Part shown: positions 9,483-47,111 of the stretch, piece after piece
Numbering within the stretch: position 1 is the first letter of the stretch
Layout: every line of letters starts with the position of its first letter
NCBI GenBank assembly: GCA_014859315.1
Contig: JACUUK010000003.1
Coordinates: 1 to 48,710 of the forward strand
Origin: Candidatus Aminicenantota bacterium
Lineage (GTDB): Bacteria > Acidobacteriota > Aminicenantia > Aminicenantales > Aminicenantaceae
Direction: 5' to 3'
DNA length: 48,710 bases
Notes under the pieces: generated by a model
Seen by the model: the letters and a program-made list of their open reading frames with translations, nothing else
Databases searched by the model: none
What the model was told of the DNA's origin: nothing
Translations under genes and position numbers: made by a program

Positions 9483-14023
<4,541 letters not shown>

Positions 14024-40076: not shown

Positions 40077-41645
40077 TTAATTTCCTAATATATTAGAGAT
40101 TGTGACATTTTTTTCCTTTAGTGTTATACCTAATGCCTGACTCAATCGGGCTAAAGATAGATTATAATCGATAATCGCTCTTAGCTCCGTAGTTTGAGCA
40201 TTTGCAAGGTCTCTCTGGTACTGAAGCACAAGATAATTTGTTGAAAGCCCGACTTTAAATTTTTCTTCCTCGGCGTTTAATTTTGTTTCGGCCAGTTCCC
40301 TTGCTGCTTTATAAGCTTGGACCCGTTTATAGTTTGTCTGAACGGCTCTTACAGAGTTCTTAATCTCCAAAAAGATCTGCTGTTCCTGATTCTTTAGCTT
40401 GAGTATAGATTGCTCTAAATTGACTCTTGCCTGGGCATAGGAGGCACGAGATAGAACAGAATTTATTGGGACAGAAAGAGTTAGCCCAACTGACCAATTC
40501 TTGTATCTGAAATTAAAGGCATCACTTAAGGCATCTGAAGATCCTCCCGGAACTTTTCCGATCACAATTCCTGTTAAAGGATTGTTATTGAGATATATTA
40601 TTTGATCCCCTGAAATGCCTGGGCTCCAGTAGGATGCTTGAAGGCTTAAATCAGGGAGGAGTTGATTCTTGGCATAACTTAAGTTGATTTCTTTATTTTT
40701 CAAATCAATTCTTGTGGATTGCAAATCGGGCCTGTTTTCCATGGCAATAACAAGAGCATCCTCAAGACTCACCTCTTTTTTTTCATAAGCGGGTTGGTCT
40801 TTGGGAAGGATTTGGGCTAAATCGACTTCCTGAAATTCTCCCTGTAGGTTCATAATCGTTTTTAATCTATCTTCATTGTTCTTCACAAGGGCTTCTGCTT
40901 CAAGAATATCTGCTTCCCTTGTAGCTACTTCTGCCTGGGCGTTTAAGATTTCGATAGGAGCCATGGTCCCGATTTCTACGGCTTTCTTGTTTTTCTCTAA
41001 CAGATTCTTGGCTAATTCTAAGGACTGCTGTCTAACTTTGAGATTTTCGATGCTATAGACCAAATTCCAGTAAGATTCTTCTACGCTGTAGATGGTGTCT
41101 TGAAGAGATTTCTTGAAATTATTTTCTGAAATATCCTTGTTGTTCTTTGCCACGATTATTTCTTTACGGCTGATATTGTATCCAAAATTTTTCAATAAAG
41201 GTTGTGAAAAATTCAAGCGCAGAGTGCTTCCATAGCGGGGGTTGATTGTCTGAAAACTTCTATTTGTATCGTTTTTATAAGAGTCAAGAGAAACAACAAA
41301 ACTGCCGCCTGTGGGGATGAGCTGTGTGATTTGAGCTGAATAGTCGTTATACATCGAAGTAATATTCTCTGCAGCTTCGATCCAGGAATAGGAAGCAGAG
41401 TTTGTATCTCTTTTGTTATAGCTAATAGAAAATTGAGGCATGAATTTTTCTTTGGTAAGAGAAATGGAAATTCCTGCAAGTTCAGGGTTTAAAATTTCCA
41501 CAGCAATGCCAAGGTTGTTTTCCAATGCTTTCTGAATACATTCATCAAGGGAAAGTGAAAATGCCTTTTCGTTTTGTTGAGCGTGCATCATAGTAGTCAG
41601 GCCGAAAATCATTATAATAAGAAATCTGATTGTTTTTTTAACCAT
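40077..41645 (-). CDS. TolC-family outer membrane efflux protein
   Basis: Signal peptide; repeated OEP helices (SLDECIQKALENNLGI; SLEDALVIAMENRPDL). Confidence 0.93.
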   Translation of the reverse strand: MVKKTIRFLIIMIFGLTTMMHAQQNEKAFSLSLDECIQKALENNLGIAVEILNPELAGISISLTKEKFMPQFSISYNKRDTNSASYSWIEAAENITSMYNDYSAQITQLIPTGGSFVVSLDSYKNDTNRSFQTINPRYGSTLRLNFSQPLLKNFGYNISRKEIIVAKNNKDISENNFKKSLQDTIYSVEESYWNLVYSIENLKVRQQSLELAKNLLEKNKKAVEIGTMAPIEILNAQAEVATREADILEAEALVKNNEDRLKTIMNLQGEFQEVDLAQILPKDQPAYEKKEVSLEDALVIAMENRPDLQSTRIDLKNKEINLSYAKNQLLPDLSLQASYWSPGISGDQIIYLNNNPLTGIVIGKVPGGSSDALSDAFNFRYKNWSVGLTLSVPINSVLSRASYAQARVNLEQSILKLKNQEQQIFLEIKNSVRAVQTNYKRVQAYKAARELAETKLNAEEEKFKVGLSTNYLVLQYQRDLANAQTTELRAIIDYNLSLARLSQALGITLKEKNVTISNILGN

Positions 41646-41683: not shown

Positions 41684-42901
41684 TTATTCGTAACGCAATG
41701 CTTCAATTGGATCTAATTTTGAGGCCTTTCGTGCTGGGTAAAAGCCAAAAAACACTCCTACTGACCCAGAAAAAAGAAAAGCTAAGGCCACAGAACCAAG
41801 AGTAACAATTGTTTGCCATCCAGCGAAATGAGATATTAATTTGGAGGCGAAAATTCCTACTGCAATACCGATTAATCCTCCTAATACGCTTAAGACTATA
41901 GCTTCAGTCAAGAATTGACGAAGAATATCTTTTTCGCGTGCTCCAACAGACATTCTGATTCCGATTTCACGAATTCGCTCAGTCACAGAGACCAACATGA
42001 TATTCATAATCCCGATTCCCCCCACAAGCAAAGAGACAGATGCTATTCCTCCAAGAAGATAAGTCAAAATTCGGCTGGATTCTGCTGCTCCTTCGGCAAT
42101 CTCAGACATATTCCTTATGTTGAAATCGTCCTCTGCTTCTGGAGCAATCCTATGCCTGATTCTAAGAAGTTCTTCGATTTGTTCTTTGGCATTGAGTGTC
42201 TTTACTGCAGAGACAGCAGAAACATCTATAGATTGAACATGAGTGATGCCAAGTATTCTTTTCTGTGCTGTTGTGTATGGTATGACAATCACATCGTCGC
42301 GGTTGAACCATCCTCCTGATTCTCCCTTTGACTCCAAGACTCCAATCACACGAAATGGAATTTTTTTAATTCTTATGACTTGTCCGATGGGGTATTCTCC
42401 TTCAAAGAGGTTATCCTTTACTTCACTGCCCAAAACACACACTTTAGCAGCCATTTTTACTAAGTTTTCATCAAAGAAAACGCCCTCTTCTACAGGCCAG
42501 TTTCTGATTTCCGGGTAATAGGCGCCAACGCCCTGAATAGAGGTATTCCAGTTTTTATTCTGATACACTGTTTGGACTCTTCCTGAAACAGAAGGAGAGA
42601 CATATTTGACAGCATCACATTTTTCTAAGATAGCTTTTGCATCTTCGGGATTAAGCGTGTTAAATGTTCCTGAGCCACCGTGTCGGCCACGAACAGACAT
42701 ACTACCTGGACGGACAAAAAGCAGGTTTGTTCCCATTGAGTTAAACCTGTCTTCGACTGCCTTTTTTGCTCCTTGGCCGATACTTATCATTGAAATTACG
42801 GCTCCCACACCGATGATGATCCCAAGTGCAGTTAGAAAAGAGCGCATTTTATTACGGCTTAACGCCCTTAAAGCAACTCTAATGGTGTTTAATATTTTCA
42901 T
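41684..42901 (-). CDS. MacB-type ABC transporter permease
   Basis: ALRALSRNKMRSFLTALGIIIGVGAVI; MacB_PCD + FtsX domains; GFYPARKASKLDPIEALRYE. Confidence 0.94.
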   Translation of the reverse strand: MKILNTIRVALRALSRNKMRSFLTALGIIIGVGAVISMISIGQGAKKAVEDRFNSMGTNLLFVRPGSMSVRGRHGGSGTFNTLNPEDAKAILEKCDAVKYVSPSVSGRVQTVYQNKNWNTSIQGVGAYYPEIRNWPVEEGVFFDENLVKMAAKVCVLGSEVKDNLFEGEYPIGQVIRIKKIPFRVIGVLESKGESGGWFNRDDVIVIPYTTAQKRILGITHVQSIDVSAVSAVKTLNAKEQIEELLRIRHRIAPEAEDDFNIRNMSEIAEGAAESSRILTYLLGGIASVSLLVGGIGIMNIMLVSVTERIREIGIRMSVGAREKDILRQFLTEAIVLSVLGGLIGIAVGIFASKLISHFAGWQTIVTLGSVALAFLFSGSVGVFFGFYPARKASKLDPIEALRYE

Positions 42902-42919
42902 TTTTACTCCTCCTCTCTA

Positions 42920-43639
42920 TCACAATAATGGACGTTCTTCAGCGGCTTCTTGTTTCACAATAAGCCCATCTCTGATGTATATTTTTTTGTGAGCAATATT
43001 AGCAATATCTGGATCGTGTGTAACTAAAATCATTGTGATATTTTTATCTTTGTTTAATGCCTGGAAAAGGTAAATGATTTCTGCTCCAGTTTTTGTGTCC
43101 AGGTTTCCTGTGGGCTCATCCGCCAAAATAAGAGAAGGATTATTAACTAAAGCCCTCGCAATTGCTACTCTTTGTTGTTCACCACCTGACAGTTGATTTG
43201 TGTTATGAAGTTCACGTCCATTAAGGCCCACCATTGAAAGAGCTTCCATGGCTTTGTCCCTTGCCTTTTTTGAAGGAACATTCGAGTACAGAAGAGGGAG
43301 TTCCGTATTTTCTAAAGCTGTGGTTCGGGAAAGGAGGTTAAAGCTCTGGAAAACAAAGCCGATTTTCTTATTGCGTATCCGGGCTAATCTGCTTTTTTCA
43401 AGAGAAGAGACTTCCACCCCTTCCAAAATGTATTTTCCACTTGTTGGCTTATCCAGGCAGCCGATGATGTTCATTAATGTCGACTTTCCAGAACCTGAAG
43501 GCCCCATGATAGCAACTAAATCCCCCTGTTGAATTTGTAAAGAAATACCGCGGAGTGCTCGAACTTCTGTCTCGCCAACCTGGTACGTCCTTGCTATGTT
43601 TTCTAATTTAATGAGATTGTTATTTTCCATTGTTCGCAT
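42920..43639 (-). CDS. MacB/LolD-type ABC transporter ATP-binding protein
   Basis: GPSGSGKST Walker [16 protein letters not shown] signature; [10 protein letters not shown]. Confidence 0.96.
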
Positions 43640-43680: not shown

Positions 43681-45030
43681 TCATCGCCTAATTGACATGA
43701 ATCCTGCTCCTGGACGAGGGCCTGATGAACTGTTCTGACTCTTCCCAGTGGATTCACCAAGGATGACTTCCTGGCCTTCCTTCAAGTCTCCCCAAATTAC
43801 TTCTGTATAACTGTTATCAGTCACCCCAGTTTTTATTGTCACAGGTTGAAGTTTTCCTTTTTCATCCTCTATCCATACAAGAGAAAAAGCCCGTTTTCCT
43901 TTTCCCTGCATCATAAATGAACTTTGGCCGGAAGATTGGCGGTTTTCTGTCGCTAGCCTTTGTGGTCTATTGCTGTCTGGGCTTCCTTCTTGTGACATTC
44001 TTGTGGATTGCCGGCCTTCGCCCTGGCTGGCCCTCATTTGTTGGAACAGGGTTTTCATCTCTTCAGGAGAAAGAGAAGGGGTAAATCTGAGGGCTGCATT
44101 AGGAACGCGTAACACATTTTTTGCTTCGCCACTGATAATAGAGACCATGGCTGTCATCCCAGGACGCAACTTCATTTCAGGATTTACGACGTCAACAATC
44201 GTTGTGTAAGTCACAACATTTTGAATCACTTCAGGAGAGTATCTAACCTGTGAAACTTTCCCTGTGAAGAGTTCATCTGGGAAAGCATCAACGGTAAATC
44301 GGACTTTTTGGCCTTCCTTTACTCTTCCAATATCGGCCTCATCCACACTGCATTCAACTTGCATTTTGCTCAAATCGTTTGCGATTTGAAAGAGCACTGG
44401 AGCTTGAAAGCTGGCAGCTACTGTTTGTCCCACGTTGAAGTTACGGTTAATCACCATTCCGTCTATAGGGGATTTAATGATTGTATATGTAAGGTCGACT
44501 TTGCTGGAGTCCAGTTGAGACTTTGCTTGTTCCAGTCTGGCTTCAGCTGATTGAAGATCTGCCAACGAACTATAATATTGAACTTCTGCAGTTTCTTTTT
44601 CTTCGTATGAAATTAAGTCCTTTTCAAAAAGGTTTAAGGCACGATCATATTTCCTTTTTGTGTTCGCAAGTGTTAACTTCGCCTTCTCAAGGGCGGCTTT
44701 AGAGCTTCGATAGTTTGCTTCATTCTGATTTACTTTGGTTAGAAAGAGTGATTGGTCGAGCTCGGCAAGAACCTGGCCTTTTTTAACATGAGAATTAAAG
44801 TCAACATAAAGATTAGAAACCCTGCCCGAGACCTGGCTTCCCACATCCACGATAGTTACCGGGTTAAGAGTTCCAGATGTCACAACGATAGCCTCGATGT
44901 CACCTTTTTTTAATGCTTCTTTTTTATATGCCTTGCCAGTATTATTCTTTTTGTTAAAAAAGGTGATGCTGAAGATAATACCTACAATTACAATAAAGAT
45001 GAAAGCACCGATGATGATTTTCTTTTTCAT
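43681..45030 (-). CDS. MacA/HlyD-family periplasmic adaptor
   Basis: VTSGTLNPVTIVDVGSQVSGRVSNLYVDFNSHVKKGQVLAELD; lipoyl/barrel-sandwich arrangement. Confidence 0.94.
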   Translation of the reverse strand: MKKKIIIGAFIFIVIVGIIFSITFFNKKNNTGKAYKKEALKKGDIEAIVVTSGTLNPVTIVDVGSQVSGRVSNLYVDFNSHVKKGQVLAELDQSLFLTKVNQNEANYRSSKAALEKAKLTLANTKRKYDRALNLFEKDLISYEEKETAEVQYYSSLADLQSAEARLEQAKSQLDSSKVDLTYTIIKSPIDGMVINRNFNVGQTVAASFQAPVLFQIANDLSKMQVECSVDEADIGRVKEGQKVRFTVDAFPDELFTGKVSQVRYSPEVIQNVVTYTTIVDVVNPEMKLRPGMTAMVSIISGEAKNVLRVPNAALRFTPSLSPEEMKTLFQQMRASQGEGRQSTRMSQEGSPDSNRPQRLATENRQSSGQSSFMMQGKGKRAFSLVWIEDEKGKLQPVTIKTGVTDNSYTEVIWGDLKEGQEVILGESTGKSQNSSSGPRPGAGFMSIRR

Positions 45031-45467
45031 TTTTCTTCTCCTTTAGTGTTTCTATTTTTACCGGAGCCATTTTTTCTGTCTCCCCTTTCTCTTTTCATCT
45101 GAGAGAGATGATGTTCAATCATGGCTTCGAATTTAACTTTTTGTTCTTCAGTGAGAACAAAGTTGATTTCTTTTTTCAACTGCATTCGGATGGATGAAAG
45201 CTGTTCATGGATTTGCTTTCTCAAGGACTTCAGCCGTTCGTCGTTGTTTTTGAAGATTTCTCTGATGTCGTCTTCTTGTTCTGAAGAAAGATTTAATTCT
45301 TTAGCCATTGTTTCCAAGGTTGGGAAACGGGCTGGGCTTTTTCTTCTTTCTTTTCGCTCTATTTTCTGGGACAAATATTGTTTCTCTAATAGTACACCTC
45401 CAACTATCCCAGCAGAGAAGACAACGATAAAAGAAAACACTATCCAGAATTTATAATGATTTTTCAT
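45027..45467 (-). CDS. Membrane-anchored Spy/CpxP/heavy-metal-resistance-like protein
   Basis: N-terminal TM; ELNLSSEQEDDIREIFKNNDERLKSLRKQIHEQLSSIR...LTEEQKVKFEAM. Confidence 0.8.
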   Translation of the reverse strand: MKNHYKFWIVFSFIVVFSAGIVGGVLLEKQYLSQKIERKERRKSPARFPTLETMAKELNLSSEQEDDIREIFKNNDERLKSLRKQIHEQLSSIRMQLKKEINFVLTEEQKVKFEAMIEHHLSQMKRERGDRKNGSGKNRNTKGEEK

Positions 45468-46524: not shown

Positions 46525-46557
46525 GTAACATCAATTCATCTCTCCTCCGAACATTAT

Positions 46558-46585
46558 TTAGACGGAGAAGAGAAAGGAATCTTCC
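46558..46585 (-). promoter_or_regulatory. Candidate ECF-type autoregulatory promoter of the sigma operon
   Basis: Minus strand: GGAAGAT (46579-46585) - 16 bp - TCTAA (46558-46562, within CGTCTAAAT). Confidence 0.5.
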
Positions 46586-46666
46586 ATTTAATTCTGTAAA
46601 CGCAAAGTTTGTCCATTCTGATTCATTTTAAGGGAAAATTCCTTTTCATTAAAGATATATTTCTTA

Positions 46667-47044
46667 TTAATCTCCTTTTTTTACGGCGGTCCATTCCACA
46701 ATCCGACCAGGGCCGAATTGGGCTTCACCCGTCATTTTCTCCCCATCTACTGTTCCTTTATAGGTAGTCGTCATTTCTCCTCTTGGGGTGCTTCGTGTTA
46801 CAGACCATTCAACTTTATTTTCTTTTACAGTCCCTTCCCCAGTAATCTCATCACCCCTTGGGCCTTTCATGGTGACTGCTAAGTCTTCTCCTTCCTGGAG
46901 GAAGTGAACTTTCCAGGTCATTTCGCCGCGTGGAGTCTCGATTGTGAGCTCCCAGTCGCCTGTTACATTGACTTCCTGGGCGTTTAAGGCAATAACCAGG
47001 CAAGCGAAAATCAAGATGAGTAAAGCGGTTCTTATGTTTCTCAT
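46667..47044 (-). CDS. Small secreted protein, predicted beta-rich, uncharacterised
   Basis: Signal peptide (IRTALLILIFACLVIALNAQ); repeated TPRGEM / GPRGDE / TPRGEM motifs; RBS GGAGG. Confidence 0.8.
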   Translation of the reverse strand: MRNIRTALLILIFACLVIALNAQEVNVTGDWELTIETPRGEMTWKVHFLQEGEDLAVTMKGPRGDEITGEGTVKENKVEWSVTRSTPRGEMTTTYKGTVDGEKMTGEAQFGPGRIVEWTAVKKGD

Positions 47045-47082
47045 GTGTGCCTCCTAAAATAAATTTATTTTTAATCATTTTT

Positions 47083-47111
47083 TTAGACGTCAATAATGAA
47101 TTTTTTCTTCC
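47083..47111 (-). promoter_or_regulatory. Candidate ECF-type promoter of the small secreted-protein gene
   Basis: Minus strand: GGAAGAA (47105-47111) - 17 bp - TCTAA (47083-47087, within CGTCTAAAA). Confidence 0.5.

Follow-up and report, generated by a model that had tools for sequence, protein, structure and literature searches.

The closest described systems are ECF sigma factors, for which autoregulation is in itself of a known kind. E. coli sigma-E (RpoE) is a two-domain ECF factor with an adjoining membrane-type anti-sigma factor, autoregulation and envelope genes in its regulon, and its promoters have the form GGAACTT / TCTGA. Bacillus SigW and other ECF factors with zinc-finger (ASDI) anti-sigma factors have a zf-HC2 anti-sigma gene directly after the sigma gene, and SigW-type factors use a CGT-type -10 element. 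A system of another sort that bears on the present locus is the transposase mRNA of IS10/Tn10, which is protected from read-through transcription by a fold-back structure that forms only in upstream-started RNA and covers the translation start region. Most ASDI anti-sigma factors are membrane-bound, and about half of those have a zinc motif (PMC7406223). In the literature searched, we found no ECF studies on Candidatus Aminicenantes and no system like the promoter hairpin considered below; as far as we found, the regulon, its promoter code in Aminicenantes and the promoter-overlapping hairpin are undescribed there. For this uncultivated group, they would supply a promoter code and a regulon whose members can be tested.

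The window is the whole stretch of DNA that was analysed, 48,710 nt from a Candidatus Aminicenantota bacterium, and its relevant features lie in a cluster on the minus strand (Table 1). The sigma factor contains sigma2 and sigma4 domains only (PF04542 and PF08281), the domain make-up of an ECF (group IV sigma-70) factor, and scores 113.8 bits against the TIGR02937 cut-off of 42.9. Its alignment to RpoE (1or7) covers the full length, and it shares with RpoE the two-domain structure, the adjoining membrane-type anti-sigma factor, a probable autoregulation and a regulon with envelope genes. It differs from RpoE in falling short of the equivalog TIGR02939 (131.1 bits versus a cut-off of 236.15), and in the segment that reads the -35 element, which is GTVDSR here versus GTVRSR in RpoE and SigH. 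As with SigW, a zf-HC2 anti-sigma gene directly follows the sigma gene, overlapping it by 4 nt in an order that is kept in relatives, and the -10 element is of the CGT type; the regulon differs from that of SigW, however, and the sigma factor scores below the SigW equivalog cut-off. The operon also differs from that of RpoE in that it includes MacAB-TolC genes and one for a Spy-like protein. Nearly all related loci of sufficient length have the genes arranged as sigma, anti-sigma, Spy, MacA, MacB, TolC. In three genomes (L210, L211, L218) TolC directly follows the Spy-like gene, and the sigma operon is without MacA and MacB. The cluster also encodes a 701-aa protein that is DUF5916-like, judging from sequence resemblance.

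Table 1. Positions of the sigma operon, the 125-aa gene and their promoter and hairpin elements in the window.
Feature	Position	Strand	Basis or remark
Sigma promoter motif GGAAGATTCCTTTCTCTTCTCCGTCTAA	46558-46585	minus	Ends 33 nt before sigma ATG (46524)
-35 element GGAAGAT, sigma promoter	46579-46585	minus	At most 2 mismatches in 14 fixed bases at 76/79 orthologous loci
-10 element CGTCTAA, sigma promoter	46558-46564	minus	CGTC and both final A invariant in 77 aligned sigma promoters
Promoter motif of 125-aa gene GGAAGAAAAAATTCATTATTGACGTCTAA	47083-47111	minus	Ends 38 nt before ATG (47044)
-35 element GGAAGAA, 125-aa gene promoter	47105-47111	minus	Pattern match and conservation
-10 element CGTCTAA, 125-aa gene promoter	47083-47089	minus	Pattern match and conservation
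Inverted repeat, 5' arm TCTCTTCTCCG	46563-46573	minus	Overlaps -10 box; covariation across relatives
Inverted repeat, 3' arm CGGAGGAGAGA	46539-46549	minus	In expected 5' leader; GGAGG 19 nt before sigma ATG
125-aa exported protein, predicted 8-stranded beta barrel after signal helix	46667-47044	minus	Putative regulon member
ECF sigma factor, 189 aa	45955-46524	minus	Pfam Sigma70_r2 and r4_2; TIGR02937 above cut-off
Anti-sigma factor, zf-HC2 zinc finger and one hydrophobic segment	45464-45958	minus	Pfam PF13490; conserved gene order
Spy/LTXXQ-like periplasmic protein	45027-45467	minus	Weak below-cut-off matches; conserved position
HlyD/MacA-like membrane fusion protein	43681-45030	minus	Pfam PF16576
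MacB-like ABC ATPase and permease genes	41684-43639	minus	ORFs 42920-43639 and 41684-42901; named from sequence; syntenic in relatives
TolC-like outer membrane efflux protein	40077-41645	minus	Pfam assigns the homologue at G000:C195 to OEP; that copy has a motif of its own

The pattern GGAAGAW-N14-20-CGTCTAA has exactly two matches in the window, one ahead of the sigma gene and one ahead of the 125-aa gene, where none is expected (0 in 100 shuffles). This bears out the first-pass annotation, which had picked out both strings on the minus strand; it was also right that the other CGTCTAA strings of the window, of which there are three (3720, 5552 and 16481), all fall in coding regions. Its spacer of 16-17 bp holds if the count runs from GGAAG to CGTC, whereas 14 and 15 nt separate GGAAGAW from CGTCTAA. 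The likeness to RpoE-type promoters that it proposed is one of kind only, the -35 element being GGAAGA(W) rather than GGAACTT and the -10 element CGTCTAA rather than TCTGA. Both window sites have AT in front of GGAAGA, a feature that relatives do not keep. When the window was scanned with position weights, no third site scored above 9, not even in the region upstream of the gene at 12755-14023. This gene encodes a 422-aa exported protein of an unnamed family, relatives of which have the motif upstream in four other genomes (G003, G009, G011, G024).

Two of the checks that the first-pass annotation had called for, a genome-wide scan and a search for conservation in relatives (Candidatus Aminicenantes, Acidobacteriota), came out in favour of its proposal. 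The genome itself (2.06 Mb) has five exact matches, of which four are in promoter position upstream of genes: besides the window pair, there is one 52 nt ahead of a gene for an exported Vps10/BNR protein and one 164 nt ahead of a second TolC. The fifth lies antisense inside a coding region. Across the order, there are 235 exact matches versus 9 for a control in which the pattern is read backwards in the same genomes, and the motif is found in 88 of the 94 genomes. In other orders of the class (48 genomes), the count is at chance level, with 2 motif and 3 control matches. A looser search with GGAA-N16-18-CGTCTA gave no enrichment (13 matches versus 17 controls); specificity requires GGAAGAW plus the final AA. 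Alignment of 151 sites gives the GGAAGAW / CGTCTAA form with A/T-rich spacer bases, and some paralogues have the -10 variants CGTCAAA or AGTCTAA. A chance resemblance between two AT-rich intergenic stretches, for which only the low complexity of the second spacer speaks, has next to no probability given the shuffles and the counts for the order, and was already refuted by conservation.

Sufficient upstream DNA was available for 79 distinct sigma loci. The motif is perfect at 64 of these and has at most two mismatches at 76, and it lies 27-40 nt before the ATG. The three exceptions come from one genus (G015, G026, G034; L061, L062, L063), and here the sigma gene has lost both its own promoter and the hairpin. 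In these genomes the sigma gene sits behind the 125-aa gene, whose motif is retained. For the 125-aa family, 38 of 101 loci have a perfect motif and 70 have at most one mismatch. The motif is also present at 125-aa genes that are unlinked to the sigma gene, as in G066 (sigma on C5, 125-aa gene on C12) and G068 (C5 and C7), and this retention far from sigma points to a promoter that travels with the gene rather than with the neighbourhood. Several genomes of one genus have an exact motif copy within the sigma coding region (G066:C5:527990, G075:C181:42436, G080:C1:10521, G081:C312:6248, G083:C108:1190), which may be a coincidence or an internal promoter. Two records titled Verrucomicrobia and Clostridiales (L243, L246) contain an Aminicenantes locus and are probably mislabelled assemblies.

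These counts support the earlier proposal that the sigma factor regulates itself and that the 125-aa secreted protein belongs to its regulon, and we consider both very probable. An autoregulated bipartite promoter of the GGAA..CGTC type, a further mark of ECF factors, is seen here from sequence and conservation only. We infer the recognition by this particular sigma factor, the start sites and the stress signal, and the assignment of the motif to the sigma factor encoded here rather than to a paralogue rests on conservation. The genome does have further ECF genes, any of which might read the motif instead, and one at G000:C115 has GGAACTT with CGTCTA, hence the -10 box is shared. Its -35 element differs, however, and GGAAGAW is tied to the present sigma gene at 76 of 79 loci and falls to chance level elsewhere in the class; we therefore regard recognition by another ECF factor as very unlikely. 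At this other site (G000:C115:3315-3342; L008/L290), GGAACTT-N-TCGTCTA abuts the ECF gene, leaving no space for a leader, and a second ECF gene lies divergent beside it.

The genes behind the other exact sites mostly encode exported proteins, nearly all with signal sequences. They include TolC, HlyD-type lipoproteins, Vps10/BNR proteins, M16/M28/M14 peptidases and sulfatases, as well as DUF5916/CBM9 proteins, O-methyltransferases with signal sequences and an unnamed outer-membrane-like family. Judged by this content, the regulon would be an envelope and efflux response. In the mechanism that we propose, envelope stress would cause the adjoining zinc-finger anti-sigma factor to release the sigma factor, and the freed sigma factor would then transcribe the operon that encodes it (sigma, anti-sigma, Spy-like, MacA, MacB, TolC) and the dispersed set of genes for exported proteins, that of the 125-aa barrel protein among them. 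This protein has no Pfam match above cut-off and no NCBIfam match. Its AlphaFold model (pLDDT 88) consists of a signal helix and eight strands, and Foldseek gives only weak similarity, to small barrels like those of fatty-acid-binding proteins and to the barrel domain of a quinohemoprotein dehydrogenase; ligand binding would be a guess. The regulon would thereby tie an uncharacterised family of secreted barrels to envelope and efflux stress. In many genomes the 125-aa domain recurs, with weak similarity, within open frames for proteins of about 550 aa.

The sigma promoters have a second property, missed in the first-pass annotation, which is that the end of the spacer and the CGTC of the -10 box are complementary to the leader just past the expected start site. 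We assessed covariation of the two arms by comparing the pairing of 5' and 3' arms from one sequence with that of arms exchanged between species (5000 permutations). This arm-swap test was used in place of a column-based count on a MAFFT alignment because the 3' arm shifts by one base between lineages. Own arms average -14 kcal/mol over 47 nt versus -10 for swapped arms, and none of the 5000 permutations is as good; z ranges from -8.7 to -11.3 depending on the redundancy cut-off, in a permutation that is uncorrected for relatedness. A set of 23 very divergent sigma sequences gives z of -7.3. At the promoters of the 125-aa genes, which serve as a control, z is about 0, and the remaining regulon promoters have a small signal as well (z of -2.9). 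At least five arm pairs form in 53 of 57 sequences, and positions -10 to -4 each have several types of Watson-Crick pair, a diversity that cannot be explained by one inherited change.

An inverted repeat of this kind might instead be a DNA operator, at which a regulator would bind as a dimer over the -10 box and start site, with the arms covarying as its specificity drifts. A palindrome centred near the start site is typical of a classical repressor site, paired changes are expected of a dimer site, and the excess of G-U pairs over A-C mismatches, 23 to 13, is not significant (p 0.13). The distance between the arms, however, mostly varies from 7 to 17 nt, single-base bulges are common, and the arm sequences differ strongly among relatives within one genus. 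In addition, in 35 of 50 cases the sense strand gives a better fold than the complementary strand (p 0.007). The bulges, the variable loop and the better folding of the sense strand favour RNA over an operator, which we consider improbable. We also rejected two other roles for the hairpin, namely a terminator, since it has no U tract, and an RNA thermometer, since it is too stable.

RNA made from the sigma gene's own promoter would start inside the loop and so would lack the 5' arm, whereas RNA entering from upstream, for instance from the 125-aa gene, would fold the complete hairpin. Because the structure would thus be foldable only in read-through RNA, we tentatively propose that it insulates a positive feedback loop. 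Keeping read-through RNA out of the autoregulatory loop is the most likely role, although our confidence in it is low. In the same tentative sense, transcripts from the sigma promoter might be the only ones that are freely translated, with the promoter forming one half of the hairpin as a feedback insulator throughout the order. The same bases would then serve both promoter and RNA structure, and this would be a simple means of insulating positive feedback. We liken this arrangement to the IS10 fold-back, with which the hairpin would share folding in read-through RNA alone, its 5' arm overlapping the -10 box and the start site being a predicted one. It differs in that the 5' arm holds the promoter's own -10 box, and in the distance of GGAGG from the start codon.

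The gene arrangement is partly consistent with insulation. In half of the loci tested, the 125-aa gene, itself a probable regulon member, precedes the sigma gene on the same strand, and in the window we found no terminator-like site between the two. The hairpin is weak in none of 36 loci with the 125-aa gene upstream versus 7 of 36 without it, but all seven weak loci belong to one genus and the trend is suggestive only. Other observations count against insulation, among them the small pairing signal at the remaining regulon promoters. The hairpin is retained in several genomes in which the upstream gene is divergent. Throughout the order, the GGAGG within its arm stands 18-20 nt ahead of the sigma start codon, versus 5-8 nt at the 125-aa gene, and this is too far for the usual Shine-Dalgarno spacing. 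The hairpin may alternatively be a processing, stability or translational-control element of a longer mRNA started upstream, the internal ECF promoter being secondary. The strength of the fold, the frequent position of the 125-aa gene directly upstream and the lack of a terminator-like site in the window region around both genes agree with this. On the other hand, the motif is as well conserved at sigma as at any other regulon gene, and the upstream gene is divergent in many genomes, and we think such an element rather unlikely. We make no claim for an overlapping upstream ORF beginning 10 nt before sigma, the peptide of which is not conserved. A start codon shifted in frame relative to sigma is often present about 10 nt before the ATG, and in the window the stretch 46525-46549 has ATGAATTGA after GGAGG.
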